The notes under the pieces: model-generated
Databases searched by the model: none
What the model saw: the letters and a program-made list of their open reading frames with translations, nothing else
What the model was told of the DNA's origin: nothing
Made by a program: the position numbers and the translations under genes
Part shown: positions 1,496 to 22,594 of the stretch, piece after piece
Numbering within the stretch: position 1 is the stretch's first letter
Layout: each line of letters starts with the position of its first letter
From: a virus
IMG/VR virus record: IMGVR_UViG_3300030104_003714
Coordinates: 1-24,590 of that record
Length of the DNA stretch: 24,590 nucleotides
Reading direction: 5' to 3' (one strand)

Positions 1496-2400
1496 ATGAT
1501 AGGAACTGGAATCGAAAAACGTATACAAGTTCAGCAAATAATCGAAAGTCAACTTCCTGAGTTTATACTCTCAGAAAGTCCTAAGACAGTTGACTTTTTA
1601 AAGCAATACTACATCTCTCAGGAGCATCGAGGTGGTGTAGTAGATTTAAGTGACAATCTAGATCAATATATTAAATTAGATAATTTAACACCAGAGGTAA
1701 TTGTTGGTGTTACAACTCTTACTGCAGGTATAACAACTGCAAGTGATACAATTACAGTATCGACAACTAAAGGTTTTCCGAATGAGTATGGTCTTTTAAA
1801 GATAGATGATGAGGTAATTACATATACTGGTATTACAACTAATAGTTTTACAGGTTGTGTAAGAGGTTTTAGTGGTATCACATCATTTACTGATACAAAT
1901 AATCCCGGTGAATTAGTATTCACACAATCAACCACAAGTGTTCATGATGCTAATTCTGTAGTTAATAACCTAAGTGTTCTGTTTCTACAGGAGTTTTATA
2001 AGAAAGTAAAGACTTCTCTAACACCAGGCCTTGAAGATACTAAATTTATATCTGATTTAGATGTTAGTAACTTTATTAAAGAATCTAAATCATTATACCA
2101 ATCTAAAGGAACAGCAGAATCTTTCCGCATTTTGTTTAATGTTTTGTATGGATTGTCTCCAAAGATCATTGACCTAGAAGAATTTTTAGTCAAACCATCT
2201 GGTGCTGAGTATATTCGTAGAGAAATAATATTAGCAGAGGTAATAAGTGGTGATCCAAATAAATTACTTGGACAAACAGTTACAAAATCAGATGATTTAC
2301 AAACTAATGCTTCGGTATCAGAAGTTGAAATAGTAACACGAAATAGAAAGACTTTCTACAAGATTAGTTTATTTGTAGGATTCAATGATAGAAGTGGTAT
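1496..2400 (+). other. gp7-core-like block 1 of the giant protein
   Basis: This encodes residues 1-300. The order FLKQYY, SKSLYQSKGTAESFRILF, GAEY, LLGQTV parallels, from memory, T4 gp7 segments reading FESRSYDFYSTKGIEASYK, GAGTEYDI and LVGQTI. In T4 this part binds gp6 and gp53 in the wedge core. A small beta insertion (about residues 70-130, with LLKIDDEVITYTG then a RGFSGI turn) interrupts it. The alignment was made by eye and needs a profile search. Confidence 0.6.
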
Positions 2401-5400: not shown

Positions 5401-8400
5401 TGGTGATTTAGATGAAAGTAATGGTAGATTCTGTAAAACACCTGACTATCCAAATGGTGTTTATGCATATTTTGTTGGTGTAAGCACTGGTGCTCAAGGT
5501 AATCTTGATCCTAAGTTCCCATACTTTATAGGTGATAACTATAGATCAAAACCAATTGATGATAACTTCTTAATAGATCAAAATAATTTTGATTTTAATA
5601 CAAGCAAACTTATCAGAAATACCCTTCCATACAAAGTTGCAGATCCAACAGCTGATAATGATTTCCTTATTGAATCAAATGAATCTGTTGAACAAAGTTC
5701 TATTGTAGAATCTGTAACAAGAGGTTCTGTAGAAGGTTTCCAAATTGTTGAATCTGGTAGTGATTTTAAAGTTGGAGATAGTCTAAACTTTGATAATACT
5801 AATTCCTCTGGAGGGGGTGCTAGTGCCTCTATATCAAAGGTAACTGGTAAACCAATTACAAGTGTAGATACAACAGTTCAGACCTATAATAACGTCGTAT
5901 ACGTTAGAGATAGTGCAACTCAAGTAAGTGCTTTCATATCAACATCACATACATTTGCAAATAATGATCAAATCGTTGTTTCAGGTCTATCTACTAGCAT
6001 TCCAAACTTAACTGATTCTCATACTGTAGGTGTTACTTCAGAACAAGTTGTTCTTTATAAGTCTTTAAGTGCAAATTCTTCTGCAGGTATCGTTACTGAC
6101 ATATATGTTTCTAGTATTCCTGATAGAGTATCTGCAGGAAGTAGTATTGGTATTGGAACAGAAAAACTACTTGTACTCAATACATTTAGAGATAGACAGA
6201 TATTAAGAGTTAAGAGAGGTGTTGTAGGTGCAGCAAATACAGCACTTCATGCTTTGTCATCACCAGTTTTCACAGTGCCCCAAAAGTTTACAATACCATT
6301 AGTAACAGCACCTTTTGAATCCAAAGTAAATGATAAGGTATTTTTTAATCCAAAGGAGCAAGTTGGACTAGCATTGACTGCTGGAACTGTCATTGGTATG
6401 GCTAAATCATTCACAACTGGTGAATTATCGAAAGTTATTAGTGTTCCTGCAAAGAGCATCTTCCTACCTAATCATCCATTTGTAAGTAATCAGCAATTAA
6501 CATTTAAAATTCCTAGTGGTGCAGGTGCATTATCCGTTGGTACAGGTGTAACTCAAGCAGTAACTGCTAGTTTTAACTTATCAGATGGTGCTACTGTATT
6601 TGCTAAAAGAATTTCAAGTGATTTAGTAGGATTGTCAACAATTAAAGGTGGAGAGACTATTTTCTTCAAGACATCACCTACTGATAGTTTTGAATACTTA
6701 CTTGAATCTAATTTTACACAAGTAACTGGTAAGGCTCAGGAAATAACAGCACATGTTGCAGTATCAACTTCTCATGGTTTAACTGAATTAGATACTATCG
6801 ATCTTACTTTAGATTCAAACAGGTCTGGTGGAATTGGTATATCAACTTCAGTTATAGTTAAGTATTCTTCATCAGAAGATAAAATTCTTATCAATCCATT
6901 AACTGTAGCACAAACAAATATTGGTGCCGATACAATCTTTAAAGATGATCATGGATTCTCAACTGGTGAAAAAGTATTTTACGATGGTGGAACATCACAA
7001 GCAACAGGTTTATCAACTTCATCATATTTTGTATACAGAATAGATGATAATTCATTCCAACTTGGTGAAACTTTATTTGATGTTCAGAATGAACCCCCTA
7101 AAGTAGTTGGTATTACAACAAATACTGGTGGAAGTGGCCAAGAGTTCTCACTAATTAATCCTTCACTATCAGTTACTAAAAATAATGATTTAGTATTCTA
7201 TGTTTCTGATTCTTCATTAAATGGATTTAAGTTCAATTTATATTATGATAAAGACTTTAAGAATGAATTTGTATCTACTGGATCAACTGAATCATTCTCT
7301 GTTACTAAAGTAGGAACAGTAGGTGTAGGAACAACTGCAACAGTTACTCTTAATTACAAATCAGAAAATCCAATCAACGTTTTCTATACACTAGAGAAGA
7401 CTGGATTTATTAGTACATCAGATACTGACGTTCAGAATGGATCAAGAATCAATTATATTAATAGCGAATATGAAGGAACATACACTGCTTTTGGTGTAGG
7501 AACCACATCATTTAATATATCATTACAAAATGTTCCTGAAAAATTAAATTATGTTCAGACTGAAGTAGATACAATGTCTTATTTGACCAATTCTACATCA
7601 GCATCTGGTGGAGTTGGAAGAATTAACTTAGCATCTGGTGGTTTTGGTTATAAAAAGATTCCCGGAATATCCAGTATAACATCTGTAAATGGTATAAACG
7701 CAAAAATACTTTGCTTATCAGCTAGTGTGAACAAGATAAACAAGGTTCGTATTCTGGATCCTGGCTTTGAGTATCATTCAGATCAAACATTAAGACCAGA
7801 AGCAAGAATATCTCCAACAATAACTCTTATTAACTCAGATGTAATTTCTGAAATACAAGTTATATCTGGTGGTAAAAACTACATCTCAGCTCCTGATTTA
7901 GTTGTTGTTGATCCGGAAACAGGACAATTAACTGATCAAGGTGTTATTGAACTATCATTAAACTCAAGTTCTATTGCATCTGTTAATATTATTAGTTCTC
8001 CAAAAGGATTAAAACCAGTTGAACAAAGAATTAGAACAATCAATAACTCAAATGGTATATCAGTTTCAAGTATATCTGGTATGTCAACAACAACGACAAC
8101 TGGTATTGTAACTTGTACATTAGTAACACCCATAGGTGGATTTGCTCCAGCACCATTTGCTGTAGGTGATCAGATATTTGTAGAAGGTATTCAACTTGAG
8201 TCAACTGAAGGATCCGGTTATAACTCAACAGATCATGGATTCGTATTCTTTACTATAAGTGACTATCAAAATACTAGTCCTGCAAAATTAGAATTTAATT
8301 TAACAGGTATTGGTGTAAGTATTGGTATTGCAAAAACATCTCAAACTAATTATGCAACAATCACTAATTTCAACAATTATCCTCAGTTTAGAACAATTCA

Positions 8401-11400
8401 AAAATCTGCTGAGTTCAGAATCGGTGAGAGGTTAGCAGTTAAAGAAAATAATAACTTTGTATTATCTAATCTATCTGTTCTTGAGAATAATCCTGATGAA
8501 TTTATCAAGATATTTGGTAAGAGAGAATTAGTTGTTGGAGATGAGATAAGAGGTGAGATAACTGGTACACAGGCCACAATCAATTCTATCGCATTAAACA
8601 GAGGAAGATTTGATGTAGATTATGCACTCAGACAGGATCGTGGATGGAATACTGAAGTTGGTAAATTGAGTGAAGATTATCAGGTTTTAGCAGATAATGA
8701 TTACTACCAAAACTTATCATACACAATTCAGAGTCCAATAACCTTTGAAGAAATTGTAGATCCTGTGAATAGACTTGTTCATACTACAGGATTAAAGAAT
8801 TTTGCTGATACTGGTATTACATCAACTGCAAAAAGTGGTATTTCTTCAACATCTGATCTTGTTATTGCAAGAGACCTTGTAAGTGAGGAAAGAGTAGATA
8901 CTATTAACAACTTTGACTTAGTAGTTGATACAGATACACTTATTGGAGGAACTCAATCTAAATTCCTTAAATTACGCAATCAAAAACTTGCAAGTTACAT
9001 TGAGTGTAGAACAAACCGTGTTCTTGATATCGATGATATTAGTTCTCAGTTCTCAAATACAAATAGTTCTCAAAATAATAGAATTGACTTTGCAATAAAT
9101 GAAAATTATGAAAGTTTCTTAATTCAAACTAAAAATCCAACTACAAGTGAGATTCAGGTAGATGAGGTAGTTGTATTCAAAGATAATACTGATACATTTA
9201 CTTTTGAGAAAAACAATATAGGTATTGGAACTCAAAAAATTGTTGATGTTATTGGATTTACAGATTCAGCAACAAGTGATACTTCATTAAGAGTCACTCC
9301 AACAGACCCATTTGACGATGATTTAGATATCAAAGTATATCGTAATACATTCAATAGCACATTAGCTGGTATCAATACACAGAGTGTTGGATTTGTTAAC
9401 TTAGTTGGTGTTGCAAAATCAGTTAACCCAAGCACTACAGTTAGTCTTGTAAGTTCTCCTGTTGGAGTTACATCTGCATTCTATGCAACTGTAGAGGTTA
9501 CTGATGTTGATACAAATGAAAAGAATTTAGTTGATATCTATGCAACTCATGATGGAACAAACTCATACTTCACTGAGTACTATGTTGATAGTGGTGATAT
9601 TGCAAACTTCTCGTCAAACTTTATTGGAACATTCACTTCAAATCTAAGTGGAGGTATTCTTTCAATTGATTTCCAAAATACAGGTATTCATACTGCAATA
9701 CTTAGATCAAAAGCAGTTGGTCTTGGACTTACATCAGTTGGAATAGGAACATTTAGATTTAAAGATACTGCACAATTAGATGGATCTGAAAGAACTGTTA
9801 ATTTACAGTCAAACTTCAAACGTGTAAGTAGCACATCCACAATTGTAGGTGTAGATTCAAACAAATTCAGTACAATTAAGAGTATTGTTAAGGTTGCAGT
9901 AGGTTCAACTATTGCAATACATCAAGTTTTAGCAACTCATAATGGAACTGACACTTCATTAGTTCATTATCCATTCATATCAATAGGAAGTACAGCTGGT
10001 ATCGGTACATTTATTGCAAACTACGCAAACAATAAATTCAATCTTAGATTCAATCCTGATACTGGTGTGTCCGATGCAGAAGTTTCTGCTTACAGTGAAA
10101 TAATATACACAGATCTTGATCTATTCAATGTTCCACCTGATTTAACATATGGTCGTGTTACAGAATCAGTTGCAGTTCGTCAATACAATGCTGTAAATGG
10201 TAATAGAGCAAATAAAACTGAGTTTGAATTGAAGCATGGTGGTGTTCCAATTTTTGCAAAAGTATTTTCACCATCGGATGCTACAAAATTAAATCCTGTA
10301 ACAGGTGTCTTTACTATTAATGATCACTTCTTTAGCACGGGTGAAAAACTTAAGTACACACCGAAGAGTACATTTATCGGTGTTACGGCTGATGCGATGG
10401 AAACATCTGCAGGAACTGATCTTACAACTGATGTATTTGCAATCAATCTAACACAAGATACTTTCAAATTAGCATTGACAAAATCAAATGCTAATGCTGG
10501 AACTGGTGTTACATTTACATCATTAGGAGCAGGAAATGCTCATCAACTTGAAATGACCAAAAAACTTGAGAAGAGTTTGATAAATGTTGATGGATTGATA
10601 CAATCACCAATAGCATTTACACCTGTTAATACTACAGTTACAAATAATGGTGGTAGTATTTCAGCATCAGATGCAATCTTTAGTGTTGCTGGTATTTCAT
10701 CAATTATTGAAGGAGATATATTAGAAGTTGGAACTGAATTGATGAAAGTTACTTCAGTTGGTCTTGGAACAACTGCACTTGGCCCAATATCTGGTAACGG
10801 TGCATTAAACTTAGTTGGTGTTGACAGAGGATCATTAGGAAGTACAGCAGCATCACATAATGATTCAACTGCGATTCGCAAATTTAAGGGATCATTCAAT
10901 ATAGTTGATAGTAAAATACACTTTACAGATGCTCCTAAAGGAACAAACTTTGCAGCACAAGATCCATCAAGTTTACCATTCCCAAGATCTGATTTCCACG
11001 GTAGAGTCTATCTTAGAAATGATTACACAAATAATAGAATCTTTGATGATATATCAGATGGATTTACTGGAATTGCTGCAACACACATAGTTAAAGTTGG
11101 TGGAGCAAATACAACTGGTATTCAAACTGGTGGTAGTATTGTTCTTCTAAATGGAATATTCCAAACACCAACAACAGATAATAATCAAGGAAATAATTAT
11201 GATTATATCTCAGATGCTAGTGCAGGTATTACAACAATCGTATTTACAGGTATTACATCTACAGACGGTTCAAAAATTGTTAGCGAATCTGATATTAACT
11301 TAAATCAGTTACCTAGAGGTGGAATGATAGTTTCACTTGGATCAACTGGTGGTTTAGGTGTTGCTCCTCTTGTAGGTGCTGCTGTGACAGTGGTTAAGAA

Positions 11401-13816
11401 TGCAAATGGTGTTCTTACATCTGTTGGTGCTGGTGCAACTGATCAATTAGGATCTGGATATCGTGGATCAGTTTCAATCGGTGTTACTGATATTGCTTAT
11501 GAACATCGTTTTGCAAGTTCTGGTATCGGATCAATAAGAAAGAGTAATTTCAGTACCGGTGATGCTTTCACTGCCACAAATGCAGTTTATACATCTCATA
11601 CTGGTGTATTAGTGATAACCATTCCAAATCATGGATTAACTACAAGTGATACAGTTGGTATTGATACTGGTGGTTTAGTATTCAGATGCTCTAAGGATAA
11701 TTTCCAAACATTACATCCATATCCTCGTTCAGTATCCGTTACTGCACAAGGAACAAGAAGTGATCCCGTTGCTGGTATTCAAACAACTATTACTGCTAAA
11801 ACAACTAATACAATTACTATAAACGTTGGCCCCGGTGGTGGTGCTGGTACAGGTGCAGTTGTTAATGCAACTGTTGGTGCCGGTGGTACATTAGCATTTA
11901 CTGTTGCAAATGGTGGTACAGGTTATGTTAATCCAAGAATCAATATACCATCACCAACTTATGAAAATCTTGAGGTAGTCGGTGTATCAAGACTAGGAAT
12001 TGGTGCTACAACAGATACTGGATTAGGATTGAAGATATCTGTAGATGTTGGTGCTGCTTCAACAGTTGGAGTAGGATCTACACTTCATACAGTTAAATCA
12101 TTTAAGGTCACTAGAAATGGTTTTGGATTTAAGAAAGGAGATGTATTTAAAGTTGTTGGTTTAGTTACTGATAGACAGTTAACTAATAGAGTTAATGAGT
12201 TTGAATTAACAGTTACTGAAACATTTACAGATAACTTCTCATCTTGGGACTTTGGTGAGTTTGATTTCATTGATCCTATTAAGAACTTACAAAATGGTGT
12301 AAGAAAGAGATTCCCAATCAAAGTAAATGGTGAACTATTAAGTTTTGAGATTGATGGAGCAAATGCTCAGTCATCATTGGTTATTATGCGTAATTTACTT
12401 ATGATCTATGTGAATGGTGTATTACAAGAACCCGGTGTAGCATATACATTTGATGGTGGTACTACATTTGCATTCTCAATAGCACCAAGTGCTGATGATG
12501 ACGTTGCAATCTTCTTCTATAAAGGATCTGTTGGAGGATCTAGCCCAGATACAGTTACAGTAGATGTTCAAGAAACATTGAAAGCTGGTGATATTATTGA
12601 AGTTGGTTCAATATCAGGTGATTTAGGACAATCTGAAAGAACTGTAATTGGTATTACTACATCAGATACATTTGAAACTGAAATTTACACTGGAACAGGT
12701 ATTAACCAAAATACATTTAAACCAATTGTAAACTGGAAGAAACAAAAAGTTGATAAGATTATACGAGGTGATGTTGTATCAAAAGCAAGAGATTCGATTG
12801 AACCACTTATATTCCCAACTGCACGAATCATTGGTAATATTTCAACTGCTACAGCTGCAGGAACAAATATATTTGTTGATGATGCACAGTTCTTTGAATA
12901 TGAAGAGGATCATTCAAGCATTAACATTAATAGTTTTGGTGGTCTGTTAATCAATAATGTTAATCCAGTTGCTGCTGCTCTTACTGCAACAGTGTCTGCT
13001 GGAGGAACTATATCTGCTATCACAGTTGTATCTGGTGGAAGTGGTTATGTAGGATCAACAACAAGTGTATCAATTGCTGCTCCAGTAGGCGTGGCAAACA
13101 CATTATTTGCTCAAGTAGGCGTATCTACATTTGCAACTGCAACTGCAACGATTACTAACGGATCAATTGCATCAGTAGCAGTGAATAATATTGGTCTTGG
13201 ATATACAACTGCAAATCCACCAATAGTTCTCGCACCTTTCCCTGAATTGATTTCTGAAGAGATCACTAATATTAAAGAAGTTGCAGGATTCTCTGGAATA
13301 ATAACAGGTATTACTACAACAACTGTAGGAGTATCAACATTAGGTCTTAGAATTGGTCTTGCAAGAACTTCTGATAACTTTAATGATCTTCAGGCTGGAT
13401 ATCCAATTTATATTTTTGATACCACAGTTGGTAATGGAGTAACCTCAATTAACTTAAGTGGTAACAATAATGATATTGTTGGTGTTGGAACACTATTTGC
13501 AGATAACATCTATATTATTCAATCAATTACTAAGAGTGGACAAAATGCTGAAATAGTCACGAATATTCACTCAGGAACTGTTCACGCAGGATTGACTGCA
13601 TCACACACCGCAAATGGTGGGTATAATGGTCGATTCTCATGGGGTAGATTCTTTAATTCATCAGGTGCGTTTAGTAGACCAGAACCAATTTCAATTGGTG
13701 TAACAGGTCATACAGTTGGACTTTCAACAGGTACAGGAATATCAACTTTCCCAACAATTCAAAGGAGAGTATTTGGTCTTCGTGATACCGGTGCAGTCCG
13801 TAAAACATTAAGTTGA
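1496..13816 (+). CDS. Giant gp7-like baseplate wedge protein with YHYH-like and many beta-repeat modules
   Basis: This 4106-residue protein sits exactly where T4 has gene 7. Residues 1-300 resemble the C-terminal core of T4 gp7: FLKQYY (34-39), SKSLYQSKGTAESFRILFNV (197-216), GAEY (236-239) and LLGQTV (257-262). Residues 2380-2440, with DNDYYQNLSY (2400-2409) and VNRLVHTTGLKNFA (2424-2437), resemble the next part of that core. Between and after these lie beta-rich modules: a YHYH-like domain (1243-1326), several G-x-GY repeats, 'HGF-x-TGE' repeats, a duplicated 130-residue domain (around 2683 and 2813), and a conserved block starting near W3584. There are no membrane segments or signal peptide. 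The ATG lies one base after the gp6 stop; a weak AGG sits about 7 bases upstream. It ends in tandem stops TGA TAG. Role as wedge core with a fibre-like extension is inferred; homologues are usually called 'structural protein'. Confidence 0.75.
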   Translation: MIGTGIEKRIQVQQIIESQLPEFILSESPKTVDFLKQYYISQEHRGGVVDLSDNLDQYIKLDNLTPEVIVGVTTLTAGITTASDTITVSTTKGFPNEYGLLKIDDEVITYTGITTNSFTGCVRGFSGITSFTDTNNPGELVFTQSTTSVHDANSVVNNLSVLFLQEFYKKVKTSLTPGLEDTKFISDLDVSNFIKESKSLYQSKGTAESFRILFNVLYGLSPKIIDLEEFLVKPSGAEYIRREIILAEVISGDPNKLLGQTVTKSDDLQTNASVSEVEIVTRNRKTFYKISLFVGFNDRSGINGTFTIPGKSKSIGNVSAGSSVITVDSTVGFGTTGTVISGINTITYGDKTVNQFLNCTGIGSSISSTDDVRADEFIFGYEDGDLTKRVELRITGVLSDFELLERTGSSVTSEGERITVKNLGEVVPNPSVNKTKKEVFFNSWIYNTSCTFEIDSINGSTFLLKSDFDKSNLKEGDKVDIIRRGTEIIDVSDAVIKTTNPTGLQDKQLILDNIVGFTPATGISYNIRRKLDRAFSTTSQLQFGNNVITSNVQNTYNDGDENYYVASSSLPSYDITETVSKSVIPNSTGTSLQGFNNVTQKYSIISFATDTEFRTGDAIFYKPSSTPLTGLEEGVYYVEVLSQKNQIRLYSSRSFIPISDFLEFTSSGSGSHSFVLLRHKNELIGVQKILKKFPTEANIESGLSTPTEPGSTGILVNGVEITNYKSLDKIYYGPLKDVKVFNGGSNFDVINLPNIILPQVASGTTALVQPVIQGTLKEVLVDQQDFDIENVLSLTLSGGNGTGAILKPIVSKRFRELSFDGRNSATRGGVDIANDQIIFDKPHNLLSGEPLVYNNNNNLSLGVGSFKGSNTDQNKTLSNGSIYFPEVVGISSIKLFETLNDFNSGINTVGFTTVNTQGTHKFRLLNKKNHLRSVVIENAGTDYTNRKLLVKPVSISTIENTVNFVDHGFLDGEVVAYNFEAGGATIVGLSSANQYKVIALDNDTFRVANAGVGGTDNSDYLRGDYVKFTSAGTGLQEFKYPEIELNIKAVYSPTTFARNGDLVVTPVVRGSIIKNYLYEPGTNYGSEILNFEKKPGVTLQNGKQAEIRAIASEGKIIAVDIRFGGKEYFSPPDLEFVGVGSGVGAKLRPIVTNGKITDVKIVNPGIGYTATPTVRVKPAGSGQIFEPSIRSLTINSLTRFGDEVLLRESDDNLQYAVVGYNTSIYSTLFEDPDSITGHSPIVGWAYDGNPIYGPYGYIDPADSDSAIVILNTSYTLNTSNVTNRPTSFAGGFFVEDHQYDDSGDLDESNGRFCKTPDYPNGVYAYFVGVSTGAQGNLDPKFPYFIGDNYRSKPIDDNFLIDQNNFDFNTSKLIRNTLPYKVADPTADNDFLIESNESVEQSSIVESVTRGSVEGFQIVESGSDFKVGDSLNFDNTNSSGGGASASISKVTGKPITSVDTTVQTYNNVVYVRDSATQVSAFISTSHTFANNDQIVVSGLSTSIPNLTDSHTVGVTSEQVVLYKSLSANSSAGIVTDIYVSSIPDRVSAGSSIGIGTEKLLVLNTFRDRQILRVKRGVVGAANTALHALSSPVFTVPQKFTIPLVTAPFESKVNDKVFFNPKEQVGLALTAGTVIGMAKSFTTGELSKVISVPAKSIFLPNHPFVSNQQLTFKIPSGAGALSVGTGVTQAVTASFNLSDGATVFAKRISSDLVGLSTIKGGETIFFKTSPTDSFEYLLESNFTQVTGKAQEITAHVAVSTSHGLTELDTIDLTLDSNRSGGIGISTSVIVKYSSSEDKILINPLTVAQTNIGADTIFKDDHGFSTGEKVFYDGGTSQATGLSTSSYFVYRIDDNSFQLGETLFDVQNEPPKVVGITTNTGGSGQEFSLINPSLSVTKNNDLVFYVSDSSLNGFKFNLYYDKDFKNEFVSTGSTESFSVTKVGTVGVGTTATVTLNYKSENPINVFYTLEKTGFISTSDTDVQNGSRINYINSEYEGTYTAFGVGTTSFNISLQNVPEKLNYVQTEVDTMSYLTNSTSASGGVGRINLASGGFGYKKIPGISSITSVNGINAKILCLSASVNKINKVRILDPGFEYHSDQTLRPEARISPTITLINSDVISEIQVISGGKNYISAPDLVVVDPETGQLTDQGVIELSLNSSSIASVNIISSPKGLKPVEQRIRTINNSNGISVSSISGMSTTTTTGIVTCTLVTPIGGFAPAPFAVGDQIFVEGIQLESTEGSGYNSTDHGFVFFTISDYQNTSPAKLEFNLTGIGVSIGIAKTSQTNYATITNFNNYPQFRTIQKSAEFRIGERLAVKENNNFVLSNLSVLENNPDEFIKIFGKRELVVGDEIRGEITGTQATINSIALNRGRFDVDYALRQDRGWNTEVGKLSEDYQVLADNDYYQNLSYTIQSPITFEEIVDPVNRLVHTTGLKNFADTGITSTAKSGISSTSDLVIARDLVSEERVDTINNFDLVVDTDTLIGGTQSKFLKLRNQKLASYIECRTNRVLDIDDISSQFSNTNSSQNNRIDFAINENYESFLIQTKNPTTSEIQVDEVVVFKDNTDTFTFEKNNIGIGTQKIVDVIGFTDSATSDTSLRVTPTDPFDDDLDIKVYRNTFNSTLAGINTQSVGFVNLVGVAKSVNPSTTVSLVSSPVGVTSAFYATVEVTDVDTNEKNLVDIYATHDGTNSYFTEYYVDSGDIANFSSNFIGTFTSNLSGGILSIDFQNTGIHTAILRSKAVGLGLTSVGIGTFRFKDTAQLDGSERTVNLQSNFKRVSSTSTIVGVDSNKFSTIKSIVKVAVGSTIAIHQVLATHNGTDTSLVHYPFISIGSTAGIGTFIANYANNKFNLRFNPDTGVSDAEVSAYSEIIYTDLDLFNVPPDLTYGRVTESVAVRQYNAVNGNRANKTEFELKHGGVPIFAKVFSPSDATKLNPVTGVFTINDHFFSTGEKLKYTPKSTFIGVTADAMETSAGTDLTTDVFAINLTQDTFKLALTKSNANAGTGVTFTSLGAGNAHQLEMTKKLEKSLINVDGLIQSPIAFTPVNTTVTNNGGSISASDAIFSVAGISSIIEGDILEVGTELMKVTSVGLGTTALGPISGNGALNLVGVDRGSLGSTAASHNDSTAIRKFKGSFNIVDSKIHFTDAPKGTNFAAQDPSSLPFPRSDFHGRVYLRNDYTNNRIFDDISDGFTGIAATHIVKVGGANTTGIQTGGSIVLLNGIFQTPTTDNNQGNNYDYISDASAGITTIVFTGITSTDGSKIVSESDINLNQLPRGGMIVSLGSTGGLGVAPLVGAAVTVVKNANGVLTSVGAGATDQLGSGYRGSVSIGVTDIAYEHRFASSGIGSIRKSNFSTGDAFTATNAVYTSHTGVLVITIPNHGLTTSDTVGIDTGGLVFRCSKDNFQTLHPYPRSVSVTAQGTRSDPVAGIQTTITAKTTNTITINVGPGGGAGTGAVVNATVGAGGTLAFTVANGGTGYVNPRINIPSPTYENLEVVGVSRLGIGATTDTGLGLKISVDVGAASTVGVGSTLHTVKSFKVTRNGFGFKKGDVFKVVGLVTDRQLTNRVNEFELTVTETFTDNFSSWDFGEFDFIDPIKNLQNGVRKRFPIKVNGELLSFEIDGANAQSSLVIMRNLLMIYVNGVLQEPGVAYTFDGGTTFAFSIAPSADDDVAIFFYKGSVGGSSPDTVTVDVQETLKAGDIIEVGSISGDLGQSERTVIGITTSDTFETEIYTGTGINQNTFKPIVNWKKQKVDKIIRGDVVSKARDSIEPLIFPTARIIGNISTATAAGTNIFVDDAQFFEYEEDHSSININSFGGLLINNVNPVAAALTATVSAGGTISAITVVSGGSGYVGSTTSVSIAAPVGVANTLFAQVGVSTFATATATITNGSIASVAVNNIGLGYTTANPPIVLAPFPELISEEITNIKEVAGFSGIITGITTTTVGVSTLGLRIGLARTSDNFNDLQAGYPIYIFDTTVGNGVTSINLSGNNNDIVGVGTLFADNIYIIQSITKSGQNAEIVTNIHSGTVHAGLTASHTANGGYNGRFSWGRFFNSSGAFSRPEPISIGVTGHTVGLSTGTGISTFPTIQRRVFGLRDTGAVRKTLS
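4820..5043 (+). repeat. Tandem G-x-GY type beta repeats (giant protein)
   Basis: Residues about 1109-1183 contain two consecutive units of the pattern 'G-x-I-x-x-V-x-I-x-x-x-G-x-x-Y-x-x-x-P', one with GKIIAVDIRFGGKEY and the next with GKITDVKIVNPGIGY. Each is followed by a strand and a G-S-G-x-G-A-like turn. The same unit recurs elsewhere in this protein, in gp8 and in the DUF4815 protein. Confidence 0.75.
5190..5560 (+). other. YHYH-like domain with degenerate histidine motif
   Basis: Residues 1243-1257 read GWAYDGNPIYGPYGY, and residues 1306-1320 read DESNGRFCKTPDYPN followed by GVYAYF. These two blocks in this order are the signature of the YHYH domain (Pfam PF14240), also found in large virion proteins of marine T4-like phages. 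The motif that names the family is YAYF here (1323-1326), so both histidines are replaced. A purely structural role is likely. Confidence 0.8.
8640..8815 (+). other. gp7-core-like block 2 (YYQ...SY...VH motif)
   Basis: Residues about 2382-2440 carry a GWNTEVGKLSEDYQVLADND lead-in, then YYQNLSYTI and VNRLVHTTGLKNFAD. A pattern of this kind (tandem Tyr, a hydrophobic SY-I strand, then V-x-x-x-VHPxG-x-x-F) is widespread in phage baseplate and fibre-base proteins. It resembles T4 gp7 where SYYVMKIKS is followed by IRFVHPVGFGF. It is separated from block 1 by about 2,080 residues, against roughly 60 in T4. Alignment is by eye. Confidence 0.55.
9470..10120 (+). repeat. In-frame duplicated domain of about 130 residues
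   Basis: Two adjacent copies are anchored by ATHDGT (residue 2683) and ATHNGT (residue 2813). At DNA level the anchors are gcaactcatgatggaac (9542) and gcaactcataatggaac (9932), which differ at one base and are exactly 390 bases apart. In each copy the anchor is followed by an aromatic strand, a G-T-F strand (IGTFTS / IGTFIA) and a G/N-turn before a hydrophobic strand (ILSIDF / FNLRFN). This is a tandem domain duplication inside the giant protein; the remainder has diverged. Confidence 0.7.
12235..12560 (+). other. Conserved beta domain beginning SSWDFGEFDFIDP
   Basis: Residues about 3582-3688 contain SSWDFGEFDFIDPIKNLQNG, then an RKRFPIKVNGELLSFEID strand pair, then LMIYVNGVLQEPGVAYTFDG and a DDVAIFFYKG strand. 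The 'I-x-V-N-G-V-L-Q-x-P-G-x-x-Y' pattern is common in phage fibre and baseplate proteins, where it makes a small beta sandwich. It is one of the best conserved blocks of this protein type, as judged from recollection of cyanophage sequences. Confidence 0.55.
12980..13240 (+). repeat. Tandem G-x-GY type beta repeats near the C-terminus of the giant protein
   Basis: Two units are visible: GGTISAITVVSGGSGYVG and then NGSIASVAVNNIGLGYTT, about 60 residues apart. Each ends in a short P-x-I/V strand. They match the units at 4820-5043 in pattern but not closely in DNA, so they are old duplicates rather than a recent expansion. Confidence 0.75.
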
Positions 13817-13852: not shown

Positions 13853-15412
13853 ATGCCAGCAGTAGTCACTGATCAGTTTAGAATATTAAATGCAAGTAAC
13901 TTTGTTGATACGGTTACTGGGATAGGAGGAACTGATCCATCAAATTCATTTTATGTTACATTAGGTCTGCCCAATCCAACAATTGTGGGGTTTGGTAGAA
14001 CTTCTACATGGAATACAAGCACTCCTAATCCTGTTGATAATATCAATAATAACAACAATATTGGTGATACTACTTTATTTGGTAAAAGAGTTACTGGTAA
14101 GAATGTAAGAAGATTGATAAGAAAGGTCGATTGGACACAAGGAACAAGATATGAAATGTATCGTCATGACTATAGTATTGATTCACCTTCACCGGTAACT
14201 CAGTCAGCAAGACTATATGACTCAAGATATTATGTAATTAACGAAAACTTTAATGTATACATTTGTATTGATAATGGTTCATCAGGTATCAACACTACTG
14301 GAAATGCATCACAAGATCAACCAACCTTTACAGATTTAGAACCATCAAGAGCTGGAGAGAGTGGAGATGGTTATATTTGGAAGTTCTTGTACACTGTATC
14401 ACCAAGTGATATTATTAAATTTGATTCAACTGAGTTTATTGCAGTTCCAAATGATTGGACAACAACTAACGATGCTACAATTCAAGCAGTACGTGAAAAT
14501 GGTGATTCTGATTTAAACAATAACCAAATTAAGAAAGTTTATATTGATAATCAAGGTAATGGATATTCAGGGGGAGTTGGCCAAGAATTTAATATTCTAG
14601 GAGATGGTACAGGAGGTAAGGTAGTAGTTGATGTAGTCGGAGGTAAGATTACAAACGCTGTCATATCTGCTGGTGGTAAAGGATATACTTACGGTATTGT
14701 TGATTTAGGAACTATCAATGCGAATACCTCAATCAAAGCAAAATTAATACCAATTATACCACCTTCAAAAGGTCATGGATTTAATGTCTATGAAGAACTA
14801 GGTACAGATAGAGTTCTATGTTATGCAAGATTTGGGGGAGACAACAAAGATTTCCCGTTTGATACTAAATTTGCTCAAGTCGAACTAGTTAAAAATCCAA
14901 CATCAGTTGGAACGACATCAATTTACTTTAGTGATTCTTATTCATCACTTAACTCTATTAAGTTTCCATCAACTACAACATCAGTTCCAACTATCGGTGA
15001 AAAGATTAGTCAATCTGTCACCGGAGGTACAGCTGTTGGTTATGTTGCATCATTTGATAAAGAAACTAAAGTATTGAAATACTTCCAAGATAGATCACTC
15101 TATTTTGGTAATGGTGAAGATCAAACAGATTATGTTGGTATATCTACTTTGGGACAGAAGTTTGCATTCCAATCAACTGCAAACCCAATAACTGCTCCAA
15201 GCGGATTCTCCGGATCTGTTGAGACTACATTTAGTTCAGGTATTACCACAGTTGGTACTAAGAATGTAGGTTTAGGTGTGACTTTCACAAATGGACTTGC
15301 TGAACCTGAAATAAATAAAGGGTCAGGTGATATAATCTACATTGACAATAGGGCGACTATTACAAGAAACGCAAGACAAAAAGAAGACGTAAAAATCATT
15401 CTGGAATTCTAA
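13853..15412 (+). CDS. 8: Baseplate wedge subunit gp8
   Basis: This 519-residue protein matches the T4 gp8 family (PF09215) at both ends of the fold. GDGYIWKFLY (171-180), followed by EFIAVP, corresponds to GDGYVWEYLF and EYIVVP in T4 gp8. The C-terminus IIYIDNRATITR...IILEF corresponds to MIYMENRPPI...ILFTF. FAQVELVKNP corresponds to FRQISIITNP. T4 gp8 is 334 residues; the excess includes a G-x-GY beta module at residues 222-300 and a second beta-rich stretch (about 360-490). An asparagine run (NINNNNN) lies near residue 65. gp8 forms dimers on the outer wedge that contact gp7 and gp10 in T4. It is preceded by its own late promoter and followed after three bases by the DUF4815 gene. T4 comparisons are from memory, but several anchors agree. 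Confidence 0.92.
   Translation: MPAVVTDQFRILNASNFVDTVTGIGGTDPSNSFYVTLGLPNPTIVGFGRTSTWNTSTPNPVDNINNNNNIGDTTLFGKRVTGKNVRRLIRKVDWTQGTRYEMYRHDYSIDSPSPVTQSARLYDSRYYVINENFNVYICIDNGSSGINTTGNASQDQPTFTDLEPSRAGESGDGYIWKFLYTVSPSDIIKFDSTEFIAVPNDWTTTNDATIQAVRENGDSDLNNNQIKKVYIDNQGNGYSGGVGQEFNILGDGTGGKVVVDVVGGKITNAVISAGGKGYTYGIVDLGTINANTSIKAKLIPIIPPSKGHGFNVYEELGTDRVLCYARFGGDNKDFPFDTKFAQVELVKNPTSVGTTSIYFSDSYSSLNSIKFPSTTTSVPTIGEKISQSVTGGTAVGYVASFDKETKVLKYFQDRSLYFGNGEDQTDYVGISTLGQKFAFQSTANPITAPSGFSGSVETTFSSGITTVGTKNVGLGVTFTNGLAEPEINKGSGDIIYIDNRATITRNARQKEDVKIILEF
14516..14760 (+). repeat. G-x-GY beta module inserted in gp8
   Basis: Residues about 222-300 of gp8 contain IKKVYIDNQGNGYSGG and then GGKITNAVISAGGKGYTYG. 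This is the same two-unit pattern found in the giant protein and the DUF4815 protein. T4 gp8 has no such segment between EYIVVP and FRQISIITNP, so it is an insertion relative to T4. Confidence 0.7.
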
Positions 15413-15415
15413 AAA

Positions 15416-18400
15416 ATGCCACAAAAAACGAATTTAAATATAAGTCCTTATTTCGACGATTTCAAAAAGGATAATAATTTCTATAGGGTCTTGTTTAATC
15501 CGGGAAAACCCGTACAAGCAAGAGAACTAACCACACTTCAATCTATCTTACAAGATCAGATTGAATCTTTTGGTAGTCATATGTTTAAAGAGGGATCAAT
15601 GGTGATTCCCGGAAACATATCATATGATGCAGAGTATTTTTCAATAAAATTAGACTCAAATCATTTAGGTGTTGCAGTTTCAGTATATGTTGATAGTTTA
15701 AAAGGCAAAATCTTAACAGGACAAAGTAGTGGCATCAAAGTTCTTGTTGATGATTATGCTCTTCCAAATGATTCAACTGGTATTACAGATTTAACATTCT
15801 TTATCAAATATATTGATTCTGGTAGTAACAACTCAGTCTCATTCTTAGAGGATGGAGAGGATTTACTTGTTGATGAGGGATTTGTGTACGGAAATACTCC
15901 AGTTAATGCTGGAGACTCTGTGGCTACCCTTATAGAGGCAGATGCTTGTAAAACAGGATGTAAGGCATCTATTGCAGATGGTGTATTCTTCATTCGTGGT
16001 CATTTTGTTAACGTTTCTGCTGATAAATTAGTTCTTGATCCATATACAAACAATCCATCATATAGAGTTGGTTTATTTGTACAGGAAGAATTGGTAAATG
16101 CTGATTCAGACTCATCATTGAATGATAATGCAAGAGGATTTTCAAACTTTGCAGCTCCCGGTGCAGATAGATTAAAAATATCTACAAAACTAACCAAAAA
16201 ATCATTAACAGATTTTAATGATAAGAATTTTATTGAATTAATTCGTCTTGATGATGGTGAACTTAAAAAATTACAAAATTCTACACAATATTCTTTAATT
16301 AGAGACTACTTTGCAAAAAGAACTTTTGAGGAGTCTGGAAACTACTCACTTAAAAACTTCCAATTAAATGCATTTGAATCTCTTAATGATGGTTTATCAA
16401 ATGAGGGTGTATTTACATCTAATGAAACAACTGATCAAGGTAAAACACCTTCTGATGACTTATTAGCACTTAAAGTATCACCCGGAAAGGCATATGTAAG
16501 AGGATATGATATTGAAAGACCAGCCACAACAATATTAGACTTAGATAAACCAAGAGATAAGAAAGTAATTGAAAATAGTTCAGTACCATTCAGACTTGGT
16601 AATTTATTCCAAGTTAACCGTGCTGCTGGAACACCAAAAATTGGTTTAGATGGAACTGGAACTATTGCTCTATTTGATCAAAGAAAGGGATCAACAAACA
16701 ATGCTACCAGTGGAACAGGAACTCAGATAGGTGATGCAAGAGTATATGCATTTGAGAATCATGATGCATCTGGTGGTTCTGCTGCAACAAAATTTGATTT
16801 GTATCTATTTGACATACAAACATATACAGTTTTAGTTGTAAATAAAGCAGTATCAAACACTGATTTACCTGATTCATCATTTGTGGAGGGTTTATCAAGT
16901 GGTGCAACAGGATTTTCTGCAGTATCCGGTGGTAATAGTACAACTGTTACATTAAGAGGTACATCAGGAACATTTATTGCTGGTGAAGAAATAAGAATTA
17001 ATGATAATATTGGTGGTGCTACAAGAAGTATAAAAACTGTAACTGAAAAATCACTTAGAGATGTCAAATCCGTATACCAAGATGCATCTGCATTAGGTTT
17101 GCAGACTGATTTTAGTGCAGATATGGTTCTAAAATCCTCACCAATCAAGGAATTAGGATCCGGTGACGAAGTTAATGTAGATGGATCTAATATTTTAACC
17201 TGTGCTGGTAAGACATTTGGTTCACTAAGAGTTGGTGATATATTAATACTTAATTTAACAACAGACGCATCTCCTAGATTTAATCGTGTATCTGCCATTT
17301 CTACTGATTTGAAATCAGTGACACTAGCAGCAGTGCAATCTGTAACTGGTGTTTGTGTTGGAACTGTATTAGCATCCGCAACTCCAACTGGTATTAGTGT
17401 TGGTAAACCTGCAGTTAATAATGAAAATGCTGGATTATTTGCACAGTTACAGGAAAAAAATGTATCTGATGTTGATCTAAGTAACTCAGAATTGACAATT
17501 AAAACTCAAATTACTGGTGAAGCCACTGATGCAAATGGTTTGTTATCATTTAATCTCTCAAATTTGGTAGGTATTACAAGTGCTTTATTTGAAACATTTG
17601 ATAATGACAGATATTCAGTGCATCTTTCAAACGGAAATATTGAATCTGTATCAACAGATCAGTTTACTTTATCAAATAATGCATCAACCGTAACAATAAC
17701 AGGATTAACAGCAAGTCAATCAAATGTGGTTGTAAACGCAACTGTTAAAAAGGTTTCAATTAGTACAAAACAAAAAACATTTGATCGAAGTCATGTTGTT
17801 AATGTTGACAAATGTATTTCTGGTATATCAACTGCAAATGGTCTAACACAAAATAACTTTGTAGGACTTCGTGTTGATGATAAAGTCATTTCTTTAAATA
17901 CACCTGATGTTGTTAATGTTGTTGGTGTATATGAATCAGTAACAAATGTTGCTCCAGTATTAGATAAATTAATCTTTGTAAGTGGACTGTCTTTAAATAC
18001 TGCTTCAATACTAGGTGAAAAGATAATAGGATCTCAAAGTGGTGCGATAGCTCAAATTACTGAGAGAACAAATGCAACAACTGTAGAAATTGCATATTTA
18101 ACTCAACAGAATTTCCTTATAGGTGAAACAGTTACATTTGAAGAATCAAATATTATTACTAACTTACAAAATGTCACTGCAGGATCATATTTAAATATAA
18201 CATCAAGTTTTAATTTAGATAAGGGTCAAAAAAATGCATTCTATGATTTTTCAAGAATTGTTAGAAAGGATGGAGAAAGAGTTCCAAACAGAAGACTTAA
18301 AATTGTAGTAAACAGATATACCATTCCTTCAAATGATAAAGGTGATGTGTATACAGTTGGATCTTATGATGAAGATAGATTTAGTAAAGATGTTCCAATT

Positions 18401-21400
18401 CTTGAAGGTGATATAAGAGCATCAGATACATTAGACTTTAGACCTAGAGTTGCTGATTTTTCTGCTACAACTAGTTCACCATTTGATTTCCAAAATAGAA
18501 ACTTTGCAACTGGTGGTGTGAATCCAACATTAGTTCCATCTCCAAACGAAAGTTCAATAATTGGAATTAGTCACTATCTACCTAGAACTGATAAATTAAT
18601 ACTTGATCCTTCAGCAAATATTGATAACAGATATACTTCAGGAGAATTTGTTGTTGTTCAGGGTGTATCATCTAAGAATCCCATAGCTCCAGAGGATATT
18701 GAGTTAGGTATGACAGTGGCTAAAATTGAAATGCCAGCATATCTTTATGATCCAAAAGATGTAAAAATTACTGTAGTTGATAATCGTAGATATACGATGA
18801 GAGACATTGGTAAAATTGAGGATAGAGTAGAAAACTTAGAGACAGTTACATCATTAAGTCTTCTTGAATTGGATACAAAAACACTCCAAGTACAAGATGC
18901 TGATGGATTAGCAAGATTTAAGAGTGGTTTCTTTGTAGATGATTTTAAAAATAATTCACTACTTGATGTAAATAATCCAGATTGTAAGGTAGATATTGAC
19001 TTAGAAAATAGTCAACTTGTAACACCTACTGATTTTTATTCACTTAAACCTGAATTAGCATTAGATCCTTCAGTGGATTCTACAACTGCTGATTTTTCTG
19101 CAGATCTAAATTTATTAGATTCTGGTATCAGAAAGACCGGTGATATATTAACATTAGATTATGAAGAGGTTACACTTCTTGATCAACCATTAGCATCAAG
19201 AGTAGAGAATGTAAACCCATTCAATGTTGTATCATTCCGTGGTAATTTGGTTATCAATCCTAGTGCAGATACTTGGACAAGAAACGTTATATTAGATAAT
19301 GGTAATCGTACATTATTTGGTGATCCTGCTGATAGTTTTGCATCACAAGTATTAGTAAGTAGTGAACCAGAAACACATATACGTTCAAGAAACGTTGGTT
19401 TTGAAGCAACAACATTAAAACCAAACACAAGATACTATCCATTCTTTGATAGTTCAAGTGGTATTGATATAATTCCAAAATTAGTTGAAGTTACTATGTT
19501 CTCTGGTGTGTTTACAATCGGAGAAAATGTTCAAGCATTTGTAAGAACAAGTACAACTGGTGATTTTGGCCCACAAAGAATAGGAAGATTTAGGTTATGT
19601 CAACCAAATCATAAGATAGGCCCATTCTCAGCACCAACAGGAACATATTCAACAAATCCTTATAATACAGCAGTTACTATTCCTACAACATATTCATCAT
19701 CATCAACAGTGTTGAATATTGATATTGCCTCACTTCTAGAGGAAGCACAGGGTAGATATTTTGGAAGAGTTAATACTGAAACAGTAATTGTTGGTGAAAC
19801 AAGTGGTGCGATTGCAAATGTATCAAATGTTAGATTATTAACTGATAGAGTTGGTGATTTAAACGGATCATTCTTTATTCGTAATCCACTATCAACTCCA
19901 ACACCACCTTTAAGATTTACTAATGGTGATAATTCATTCAAACTAACTTCTAGTCCAACAAATGAACTTTCAGTTCCCGGTTCACCATCTGTAAGTAGTG
20001 TTCAATCAACATATAGCACAAGTGGTATTGTAGATACACTTTCACAGACAACGATAGGCATAAGGGAGTTACCACCACCTCCAATTCCTGTAATAATCAA
20101 TATTACAAACGTATTCATACAGCAGGAGGTTCAAGATGATGACCCACTTGCTCAATCATTTACAGTGGATGAAACTGGTGCATATTTAACATCAGTAGAC
20201 ATCTTTATGAGAAAGAAAGATGCTAAAGAAAAATTAACTGTTCAAATAAGAACTATGGAGTTAGGAACTCCAACAACAATTGCAGTTCAAAACTTTGCAC
20301 AAGTTGTTCTTGATCCTTCTCAAGTTAATGTATCTGAAGATGCATCTGTTGCAACAAACGTTAAATTCCCATCACCAATCTTCCTTGAAGGTGGTGAACA
20401 ATATGCAGTTGTTCTATTAGCACCAACAACTAATAATTATGAGGCATGGATTGCTCGTATGGGTGATGCAACAATTGATACTCAGGCACTACCTGATTCT
20501 GAAAGTGTTGTAATATCTCAGCAGTATATTGGTGGTAGTTTATTTAAATCACAGAATGGTTCAATCTGGACAGCAAGCCAGTTTGAAGATATGAAGATTA
20601 AGTTAAATAAGGCAAAATTCACTACAACGGATGCTACAGCATTCTTCTATAATCCTTCATTAGATTACGAAAGTGATCAGGTTCCAACACTTGCACCAAA
20701 TGCAGTAAAAGCATTACCACGTAAGTTGAAAGTTGGTATTGATAATATTACAGCAGCAATACCTGCTGCTCAATCATTGACTAGCGGTAGAAAAGTTAGT
20801 GATAGTACAAGTGCTGGTGCTGTTAATGGACTCATTGAATCTGTTGGTGGCCCAATTAATGCTAAAACTATAACGAATGCCGGTATTGGATATTCAAATG
20901 GAACATTCACAAGTGTACCAGTATTCCCAATAACTGGTAATGGATCTGGTGCGGTGGCAAGTGTTACTATATCAAGTAATGTAGTAAACTCAGTTAGTTT
21001 TACTAATGCTGGTAGTGGATATGCAGCTGGAGATGTTGTAGGTCTAACCACATCAAATATGGTAAAAGGTGGTGGTGCTCAGATTACCATTTCGTCATTA
21101 ACAGGGACTGATACTTTATACCTTACAAATGTGCAGGGAGAGGCATTTACAACTGGACAAGATTTGGTTGTATTTAATAATGCTGGAACTGCAGTTGCAT
21201 ATGGAAGCACAGACATTACAAGTTCAGCAGTTCTTAGTGATTTGAATACTGGTAATGTATTAGAGGTATCACATTATAATCACGGTATGACTGCCGATAA
21301 TAACATAGTTGAATTATCAAATGTAGAACCTACTACTCAACCTATTAAGATTGAAGCAGAAATAGGACTACAGGATTCAACAATCGTTGTTGGTGCTGCA

Positions 21401-22594
21401 AACACTTCCGAATTTGCAACATTTGAAGGTATTTCAACATCAACTGGTTATGTGAAAGTGAATAGTGAAATTATATTCTATAATTCAATTAGTAATACTT
21501 CTATAGGTATTGGTCAAAGAGGAGTTGACGGTTCATTAATCGTTAATCATCCAATCAATAGTATTGGACGTAAGTATGAGTTCAATGGATTATCTCTAAC
21601 AGGTATCAATACATCTCATACAATGCCTAATACAGATCTTCTTCAATCTAAGAAAGATATTGACAAATACTATCTTGAAATACCAAGAGGTGCAGGTAGA
21701 GCAAATCTTCAAAATAGATCGGCAGGTGATACTCAGGCTAGTTTCACTGATGAAAGATCTGGTGGTGGAAAAGAAATTCAAGCATCTAAGAACATTCAGT
21801 ATAACTCTGTTTATCCTGTATTCAATACATTACAACCCGGAAAAACAAAAGTTTCTTCACAGATTAGAACTGTAAGTGGAACTAGTGCAGGTGGTAATGA
21901 AGTATCATTCTTAGATCAAGGATATGAAGATATCGAATTGAATAAGGTGAACCCACTAGCAACAACAAGAATTGTTGCATCATCTCAAAATGAGGCAGTT
22001 AGAGTCAGTGGACTACCTAAAAATAGGACAAGCACTGTATCAATGAGATTTACTACAGAGGATGAAAACTTATCTCCAGCAGTTGATACTATGAACGGAA
22101 CTGTAATCTATGTTAGAAATAGATTAAACAAACCAGTTAGTGACTATGTAAATGACGATAGAGTTAAGTTAAATAATGATCCACACGCTGCGGTTTACAT
22201 TTCAAACCGTGTTGATCTTAAGCAACCAGCAACTTCACTTAAAGTATTAGTAAGTTCTGATAGAAGAAATTCTGCAGACTTCCGTACTTTATTCAAATTG
22301 TTTAGACAAGATTCTGAAGGAGTTGAACAATCATTTAATTTATTCCCCGGTTTTGATAACCTAACAGATACTGATGGAGATGGATTTGGTGATTTAGTTG
22401 TAGATGCTTCTAAGAACAGTGGAAGACCAGATGCTTTGACACCTGCGAGTGTTGATGGAGAATTTGTTGAATATGTATTCTCAGTTGATGACTTGGCTGA
22501 GTTCACAGGATTCCAGATTAAAATTGACATAAACGGTACAAATGAAGCAGAGGCACCTAAGTTTAAGGATCTAAGGGTGATAGCTTTAGCATGA
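15416..22594 (+). CDS. DUF4815 virion structural protein (2392 residues)
   Basis: The N-terminus has the DUF4815 (PF16075) signature: NISPYFDDF, then NPGKPVQARELTTLQ (28-42), IPGNISYD, and a conserved SYRVGL / APGADRLKI stretch near 215-255. Further conserved blocks follow: NAFYDFSRIVRKDGERVPNR (about 940-960), DTLDFRPRVADF, a VENVNPFN block, a PPPPIP linker (1553-1558), DPLAQSF (1576-1582) with GGEQYAVVLLAP, a tandem G-x-GY module (about 1816-1880), and a C-terminal VYISNRVDLKQPATSLKVL block. An Asp loop DTDGDGFGD (2318-2326) resembles a calcium-binding loop. The gene starts three bases after gp8 stops and holds the T4 gene 9/10 position, so the N-terminus probably attaches to the wedge and the rest projects as a fibre-like structure. 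That role is inferred; the family assignment is secure. Confidence 0.85.
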   Translation: MPQKTNLNISPYFDDFKKDNNFYRVLFNPGKPVQARELTTLQSILQDQIESFGSHMFKEGSMVIPGNISYDAEYFSIKLDSNHLGVAVSVYVDSLKGKILTGQSSGIKVLVDDYALPNDSTGITDLTFFIKYIDSGSNNSVSFLEDGEDLLVDEGFVYGNTPVNAGDSVATLIEADACKTGCKASIADGVFFIRGHFVNVSADKLVLDPYTNNPSYRVGLFVQEELVNADSDSSLNDNARGFSNFAAPGADRLKISTKLTKKSLTDFNDKNFIELIRLDDGELKKLQNSTQYSLIRDYFAKRTFEESGNYSLKNFQLNAFESLNDGLSNEGVFTSNETTDQGKTPSDDLLALKVSPGKAYVRGYDIERPATTILDLDKPRDKKVIENSSVPFRLGNLFQVNRAAGTPKIGLDGTGTIALFDQRKGSTNNATSGTGTQIGDARVYAFENHDASGGSAATKFDLYLFDIQTYTVLVVNKAVSNTDLPDSSFVEGLSSGATGFSAVSGGNSTTVTLRGTSGTFIAGEEIRINDNIGGATRSIKTVTEKSLRDVKSVYQDASALGLQTDFSADMVLKSSPIKELGSGDEVNVDGSNILTCAGKTFGSLRVGDILILNLTTDASPRFNRVSAISTDLKSVTLAAVQSVTGVCVGTVLASATPTGISVGKPAVNNENAGLFAQLQEKNVSDVDLSNSELTIKTQITGEATDANGLLSFNLSNLVGITSALFETFDNDRYSVHLSNGNIESVSTDQFTLSNNASTVTITGLTASQSNVVVNATVKKVSISTKQKTFDRSHVVNVDKCISGISTANGLTQNNFVGLRVDDKVISLNTPDVVNVVGVYESVTNVAPVLDKLIFVSGLSLNTASILGEKIIGSQSGAIAQITERTNATTVEIAYLTQQNFLIGETVTFEESNIITNLQNVTAGSYLNITSSFNLDKGQKNAFYDFSRIVRKDGERVPNRRLKIVVNRYTIPSNDKGDVYTVGSYDEDRFSKDVPILEGDIRASDTLDFRPRVADFSATTSSPFDFQNRNFATGGVNPTLVPSPNESSIIGISHYLPRTDKLILDPSANIDNRYTSGEFVVVQGVSSKNPIAPEDIELGMTVAKIEMPAYLYDPKDVKITVVDNRRYTMRDIGKIEDRVENLETVTSLSLLELDTKTLQVQDADGLARFKSGFFVDDFKNNSLLDVNNPDCKVDIDLENSQLVTPTDFYSLKPELALDPSVDSTTADFSADLNLLDSGIRKTGDILTLDYEEVTLLDQPLASRVENVNPFNVVSFRGNLVINPSADTWTRNVILDNGNRTLFGDPADSFASQVLVSSEPETHIRSRNVGFEATTLKPNTRYYPFFDSSSGIDIIPKLVEVTMFSGVFTIGENVQAFVRTSTTGDFGPQRIGRFRLCQPNHKIGPFSAPTGTYSTNPYNTAVTIPTTYSSSSTVLNIDIASLLEEAQGRYFGRVNTETVIVGETSGAIANVSNVRLLTDRVGDLNGSFFIRNPLSTPTPPLRFTNGDNSFKLTSSPTNELSVPGSPSVSSVQSTYSTSGIVDTLSQTTIGIRELPPPPIPVIINITNVFIQQEVQDDDPLAQSFTVDETGAYLTSVDIFMRKKDAKEKLTVQIRTMELGTPTTIAVQNFAQVVLDPSQVNVSEDASVATNVKFPSPIFLEGGEQYAVVLLAPTTNNYEAWIARMGDATIDTQALPDSESVVISQQYIGGSLFKSQNGSIWTASQFEDMKIKLNKAKFTTTDATAFFYNPSLDYESDQVPTLAPNAVKALPRKLKVGIDNITAAIPAAQSLTSGRKVSDSTSAGAVNGLIESVGGPINAKTITNAGIGYSNGTFTSVPVFPITGNGSGAVASVTISSNVVNSVSFTNAGSGYAAGDVVGLTTSNMVKGGGAQITISSLTGTDTLYLTNVQGEAFTTGQDLVVFNNAGTAVAYGSTDITSSAVLSDLNTGNVLEVSHYNHGMTADNNIVELSNVEPTTQPIKIEAEIGLQDSTIVVGAANTSEFATFEGISTSTGYVKVNSEIIFYNSISNTSIGIGQRGVDGSLIVNHPINSIGRKYEFNGLSLTGINTSHTMPNTDLLQSKKDIDKYYLEIPRGAGRANLQNRSAGDTQASFTDERSGGGKEIQASKNIQYNSVYPVFNTLQPGKTKVSSQIRTVSGTSAGGNEVSFLDQGYEDIELNKVNPLATTRIVASSQNEAVRVSGLPKNRTSTVSMRFTTEDENLSPAVDTMNGTVIYVRNRLNKPVSDYVNDDRVKLNNDPHAAVYISNRVDLKQPATSLKVLVSSDRRNSADFRTLFKLFRQDSEGVEQSFNLFPGFDNLTDTDGDGFGDLVVDASKNSGRPDALTPASVDGEFVEYVFSVDDLAEFTGFQIKIDINGTNEAEAPKFKDLRVIALA
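20860..21080 (+). repeat. G-x-GY beta module in the DUF4815 protein
   Basis: Residues about 1816-1885 contain AKTITNAGIGYSNG and, about 40 residues later, VNSVSFTNAGSGYAAGD, with a TGNGSGAVASVTI strand between them. The pattern is the one seen in gp8 and the giant gp7-like protein. Confidence 0.75.

Follow-up and report, generated by a model that had tools for sequence, protein, structure and literature searches.

A two-unit GxGY module recurs among virion proteins at a viral baseplate locus and has moved between genes in related phages

Phage Ig-like domains are small beta-domains that occur in fibre, baseplate, tail-tube, capsid, and Hoc proteins; they are common to several functional classes and are often dispensable (PMC9022992, PMC8718954). 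Additional tail sheath domains are extra beta-domains set off the tube-contacting core, for which virion stabilisation or assistance in adsorption has been proposed (PMC9230969). For both kinds of addition, the roles proposed are particle stabilisation or help with weak adsorption (PMC9022992, PMC8718954, PMC9230969). As a general pattern, Smug et al. (2023) describe homologous domains common to functional classes that include baseplate, neck, and tail fibre (PMC10684548).

The window considered here, the whole 24.6-kb record analysed, comes from a T4-like marine phage and encodes a partial gp6, a gp7-like giant protein, gp8, a DUF4815 protein, and two further ORFs. This gene order is that of gp6, gp7, gp8, and PSSM2_113 in P-SSM2, a T4-like cyanophage whose gp8 is 59% identical to that of the window. 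The gp8 of IMG/VR contig L011 is identical to the window gp8, and its virus is probably the window virus or an overlapping one. Three genes concern us:

1496..13816, + strand: gp7-like giant baseplate protein, 4106 aa, with most of the units (ORF; phrog_2885 baseplate wedge subunit, 3671 bits)
13853..15412, + strand: gp8 baseplate wedge protein, 519 aa (Pfam Phage-Gp8, E=2.9e-12; phrog_438)
15416..22594, + strand: DUF4815 protein, 2392 aa (Pfam PF16075, E=2.5e-52; phrog_358)

The label "gp7" for the giant protein follows gene order and the P-SSM2 annotation, its match to Pfam Baseplate_wedge reaching 13.4 bits only. The window gp8 belongs to the T4 gp8 family by both sequence and fold: hhalign pairs it with T4 gp8 at 99.5%, and its model (mean pLDDT 69, moderate) matches T4 gp8 1n7z with a Foldseek E-value of 2.9e-7. 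The DUF4815 protein scores 178 bits against PF16075, where the cut-off is 30, and is a member of that family. Its homologue in S-T4 (L002 19569-26948) is annotated as "virulence-associated VriC protein", and that of P-HM1 as "VrlC"; nothing in this analysis speaks for a virulence role.

The GxGY module consists of two beta units with a G-x-G-Y ending, about 75-90 aa in all. The two G-x-[GE]-Y units are captured by one HMM, and the T4 genome has no match to the module at E<=1. Units are short, rich in G, T, V, and I, and follow the pattern A-x-A-x-V-x-x-G-x-I-x-x-V-x-I-x-x-G-x-[GE]-Y-x-x-x-P-x-V-x-I; the conserved positions are the turn glycines, Y, and P, and no binding-site pattern was seen among them. 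The window contains the following copies, together with one site to which we return below:

4805..5053, + strand: two-unit module in the gp7-like protein, aa 1104-1186 (70.3 bits with the A1 profile, in which this row is itself included)
7586..7915, + strand: array of degenerate GxGY units in the gp7-like protein, aa 2031-2140 (three unit matches, 18-23 bits)
7679..7699, + strand: empty site TSVNGIN in the gp7-like protein, aa 2062-2068 (flank-specific BLAST and alignment)
11840..11953, + strand: single GxGY unit in the gp7-like protein, aa 3449-3486 (33 bits, single-unit model)
12971..13240, + strand: two GxGY units in the gp7-like protein, aa 3826-3915 (26 and 34 bits with the single-unit model; 24.3 with A1)
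14516..14743, + strand: two-unit module inserted in gp8, aa 222-297 (profile models; hhalign against T4 gp8)
20849..21091, + strand: two-unit module in the DUF4815 protein, aa 1812-1892 (gp8-only model, 25.1 bits; phrog_438, E=4.6e-7)

Unit and two-unit profile matches thus confirm the places in the giant protein, gp8, and the DUF4815 protein to which the original prediction had assigned the repeat. The module at 4805-5053 is the best A1 match in the giant protein and is also found by the gp8-only model and phrog_460; the array at 7586-7915 is weaker under the two-unit profile (5.8-8.5 bits), and a few more single units in this protein score below 10 bits. Shortly after its strongest GxGY module, the giant protein has a YHYH domain (Pfam PF14240, E=1.3e-24; window 5183-5482). 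A possible second repeat, ending in x-R-G-x-x-G, occurs at window 1736-1885, 6098-6265, and 10661-10876, and perhaps, from similarity by eye, at 21374-21556 in the DUF4815 protein. These stretches were chosen by eye and a small model was built from the same stretches, which is hence no independent test; it did not match the similar-looking DUF4815 stretch.

That one homologous module is common to the gp7-like protein, gp8, and the DUF4815 protein is confirmed by profile comparison. Circularity was avoided by building separate models from 35 gp8 modules only and from 28 DUF4815 modules only, and each single-family model picks out the module where expected in both remaining proteins. The gp8-only model matches the DUF4815 protein at aa 1812-1874 (25.1 bits, E=2.3e-7) and gp7 at aa 1113-1169 (16.3 bits), and the DUF4815-only model matches gp8 at aa 225-285 (17.8 bits, E=5.6e-5); top scores of reversed and shuffled controls for the two-unit models were 6.1-8.2 bits. 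Cross-matches were also obtained with public PHROGs models, which are independent of those built here: phrog_438, the gp8 family, matches the DUF4815 protein at aa 1809-1891 (E=4.6e-7), and phrog_460, a neck family, matches gp7 at aa 1105-1181 (6.3e-7) and gp8 at aa 203-281 (0.003). The module search gave 666 matches above 10 bits, versus 0 in reversed ORFs. The units therefore align in one HMM, as had been anticipated. A model of seven single gp7 units scored about 2 bits at gp8 and the DUF4815 protein, values that 30 and 19 of 1000 shuffles reached; this failure is attributed to low power, and for that reason the two-unit family models were used.

Predicted structures agree as well. AlphaFold was run on gp8 with 53 sequences and on a DUF4815 fragment of 267 aa with 40; compared by strand order, the module has six predicted strands in matching order in both models, with the GxGY turn between strands 1-2 and 4-5. 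The strands are E228-233, 244-250, 253-262, 265-276, 281-283, and 297-301 in gp8, and E86-93, 101-110, 119-125, 128-136, 146-149, and 161-167 in the numbering of the fragment; pLDDT is about 80-86 for the module of gp8, and in DUF4815 the module core reaches about 92-95. The DUF4815 fragment, in which 90 of 267 residues are of low confidence, returned 0 Foldseek matches in the PDB at E<=0.001. Against predicted viral proteins the model returned 48 at that threshold, including a neck protein, fibres, and a wedge protein.

The GxGY module is an unnamed domain family, outside Pfam and NCBIfam and unrecognisable in the PDB by the searches run. No family in either library covers it, and Pfam Ig-family models (Big_1, Big_2, I-set, fn3) gave no match for 14 and 15 modules. 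Profile searches of the PDB yielded no significant structure match; a weak one (E=0.039), to residues 446-505 of the tailspike Dpo31/Dpo36 (28lx, 28mg, 8ck1), was not repeated with profile A5. No description of the module was found in the literature searched, and a search on the motif letters, confined to open-licence literature in which papers rarely print motifs, found nothing relevant. Within gp8, the module has an entropy of 0.94 versus 0.79 and 0.96 in its surroundings; it is about equally conserved and not hypervariable, as would be expected of a structural part.

The repeat had been described as a feature of three neighbouring wedge proteins, and this proves too narrow: it is also present in neck, hub, sheath, fibre, siphophage tail-tube, and some bacterial proteins. 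PHROGs families matched by the modules comprise wedge subunits, head closure Hc2, hub/lysozyme, fibres, and several large virion proteins. Across nine phage genomes, every match that could be placed on an annotated gene lies in a virion protein (a few weak matches were unplaced), the carriers being gp5 hub-lysozyme, gp7, gp8, DUF4815, gp14 (neck), tail sheath, and fibres. T4 gp8 is without the module, and its C-terminal region aligns on both sides of it (hhalign). In the tail sheath of Stenotrophomonas phage BUCT608 (L009 30617-32596), GxGY units at aa 242-321 sit between the match to gp18 domain III and the sheath C-terminal domains; the sheath of Rhizobium phage P10VF has a module match too. 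The gp8 of BUCT-ZZ01 (L008 507-2087) apparently has about four GxGY units rather than two, so unit copy number varies. A single-sequence search of bacterial genomes found two kinds of GxGY carrier: a lambda-like tail tube protein, encoded by a Pseudomonas contig that is probably a prophage, and large repetitive proteins of secreted appearance from Acidobacteria, Verrucomicrobia, and Armatimonadetes. L154, L155, and L153 (Acidobacteria, Verrucomicrobia) have several units each, with 12 overlapping matches in L154.

Movement of the module can be seen at individual sites. One gp7 site is filled in S-H38, syn9, Syn33, S-SSM4, and P-RSM6 by a gp8-type module of about 95-101 aa, and is empty, with 7-12 residues between the flanks, in the window, S-T4, AG-345-D19, L032, and L054. 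The window has 7 residues there, and the flanks of S-H38 align to the adjoining aa 2061 and 2069. In the phage collection, 294 public records match this filled region of S-H38 over 80% or more of its length. In P-RSM6 (L149, record 103907-129628), one annotated ORF of about 8570 aa contains the site and is the largest phage protein encountered. The S-H38 insert scores 59 bits against the full gp8 profile over module columns only; among 198 modules, it and the gp8 module of S-H38 are each other's best match, with 53% identity. In a 64-row module tree, gp7 inserts and gp8 modules lie on one side of a branch with support 96/85; grouping the inserts with other gp7 modules is rejected (AU p=0.0007), and gp8 modules alone as one clade are not (p=0.23), results that rest on 71 columns and on groups chosen for testing after a quick tree had been viewed. 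Given the latter value, gp8 is the likely, not proven, source of the gp7 insert. The insertion site falls within an array of degenerate GxGY units, and recombination between units would thus be a natural mechanism.

A second case is provided by the tail tube of Pseudomonas siphophages, where the module is a clean insertion of about 80 aa with both flanks alignable: it is present in the Pseudomonas contig and phage PseuP_224, and PMG1 and HK022 have a short loop in its place. The contig protein (L152 2635-3381) is lambda-like with a two-unit GxGY insertion that its PMG1 and HK022 homologues do not have. An empty site was also sought in DUF4815, where the flanks were too diverged and none could be aligned. 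For the window itself the evidence points to inheritance. When only relatives in another protein are counted, the nearest one lies in the same gene for 38 of 42 modules of gp8, 45 of 47 of DUF4815, 74 of 80 of gp7, and 20 of 24 of gp14, which argues that the three copies of the window are old and inherited in place. The proposal that the module moved between adjacent genes therefore stands in part. Relatives carry a gp8-type insert in gp7, and in the module tree these inserts side with gp8 modules (96/85); modules of the window lineage follow their own genes.

We consider it probable that the GxGY module is a portable accessory beta-domain, housed in permissive loops of virion proteins and spread between virion genes, with a putative stabilising or adhesive role. 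This reading follows from its occurrence in many unrelated virion proteins, its presence and absence among relatives, its position within or between conserved domains, and its ordinary conservation, and we read the module as behaving like phage Ig-like domains. Convergence on a GxGY turn, or a likeness of low-complexity beta-rich composition, might be suspected from units so short and so rich in G, T, V, and I, and from a seven-unit gp7 model no better than shuffles of gp8 and DUF4815; it is nonetheless very improbable, since the two-unit models cross-match at expected sites while reversed and shuffled sequences stay at or below 8.2 bits, the 666 matches above 10 bits stand against none in reversed ORFs, and matches cover the module alone, with sharp borders. 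Descent of gp7, gp8, and DUF4815 from one ancestral protein, the module being merely retained, would suit adjacent genes in one tail gene cluster. It is set at an equally slight chance: outside the module, gp8 is related to T4 gp8; in the S-H38 giant protein, only the module columns of the gp8 profile find a match; and empty sites exist in gp7 and the tail tube.

Other explanations concern function. That the module is an adhesin for host-surface or environmental glycans, as proposed for some Ig-like domains, is possible but doubtful. It is distributed much as phage Ig-like domains are, and weak carbohydrate binding has been suggested for those domains (PMC8718954); large repetitive proteins of bacteria, secreted by appearance, carry it too. 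Yet what is conserved is turn glycines, Y, and P with no binding-site pattern, and the gp8 module is not hypervariable. We hold it unlikely that the modules of gp7, gp8, and DUF4815 interlock homotypically and so clamp neighbouring wedge proteins. Three adjacent wedge genes carry the module in the window, the gp7 of one clade acquired a gp8-type module, and the module is conserved rather than hypervariable, all as interlocking would have it; however, S-H38, Melnitz-1, BUCT-ZZ01, and BUCT608 have a gp8 module and no match in the DUF4815 protein, and the occurrence in neck, hub, sheath, fibre, siphophage tail-tube, and bacterial proteins is left unexplained. One domain on neck, sheath, hub, wedge, and fibre proteins could suggest a homotypic snap-fastener, in which module-module contacts join virion parts and gaining a copy recruits a protein to the particle; this is a speculative idea to which we give little credence.

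As a portable accessory domain, the module would be built of two units, each a beta-hairpin with the G-x-G-Y turn and a further strand, and would be accommodated by virion protein loops that tolerate insertion and are probably exposed at the surface. It may spread as copies pass from one virion gene to another and as arrays of its own units gain or lose members, recombination there being eased by the homology of the units. In the window phage it would decorate gp7, gp8, and the DUF4815 protein, adding a compact beta-surface outside the conserved core and leaving core assembly contacts alone; this surface could add to the packing of neighbouring subunits or confer adhesion that is weak and non-specific. 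Of these roles, packing or stabilisation seems likelier, since conservation falls on structural residues and the gp8 module shows no hypervariability.

The tail proteins of large T4-like marine phages are giant and poorly annotated, and a portable module accounts for part of that bulk. Naming it explains many confusing cross-annotations and gives a marker of virion protein growth, and the natural plus/minus pairs, above all the Pseudomonas siphophage tail tube, make the function of a decorating domain directly testable. Among known systems, the weak lead (E=0.039) from tailspike Dpo31/Dpo36 has two GxGY turns in residues 446-505, with spacing similar to the module. Like the Ig-like domains (Big_1, Big_2, I-set, FN3), the GxGY module occurs in several virion classes and is missing in relatives; unlike them, it is made of two GxGY units without a Pfam Ig-family match, lies inside host domains as well as in arrays, and extends to neck gp14, hub gp5, and sheath. 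Additional sheath domains are mostly called Ig-like, whereas GxGY is one sequence family common to other virion proteins. Shuffling of beta-domains among phage structural proteins is already known from the available part of Smug et al. (2023), where the GxGY module is not mentioned (PMC10684548); here the movement of the module is seen at individual empty and filled sites.
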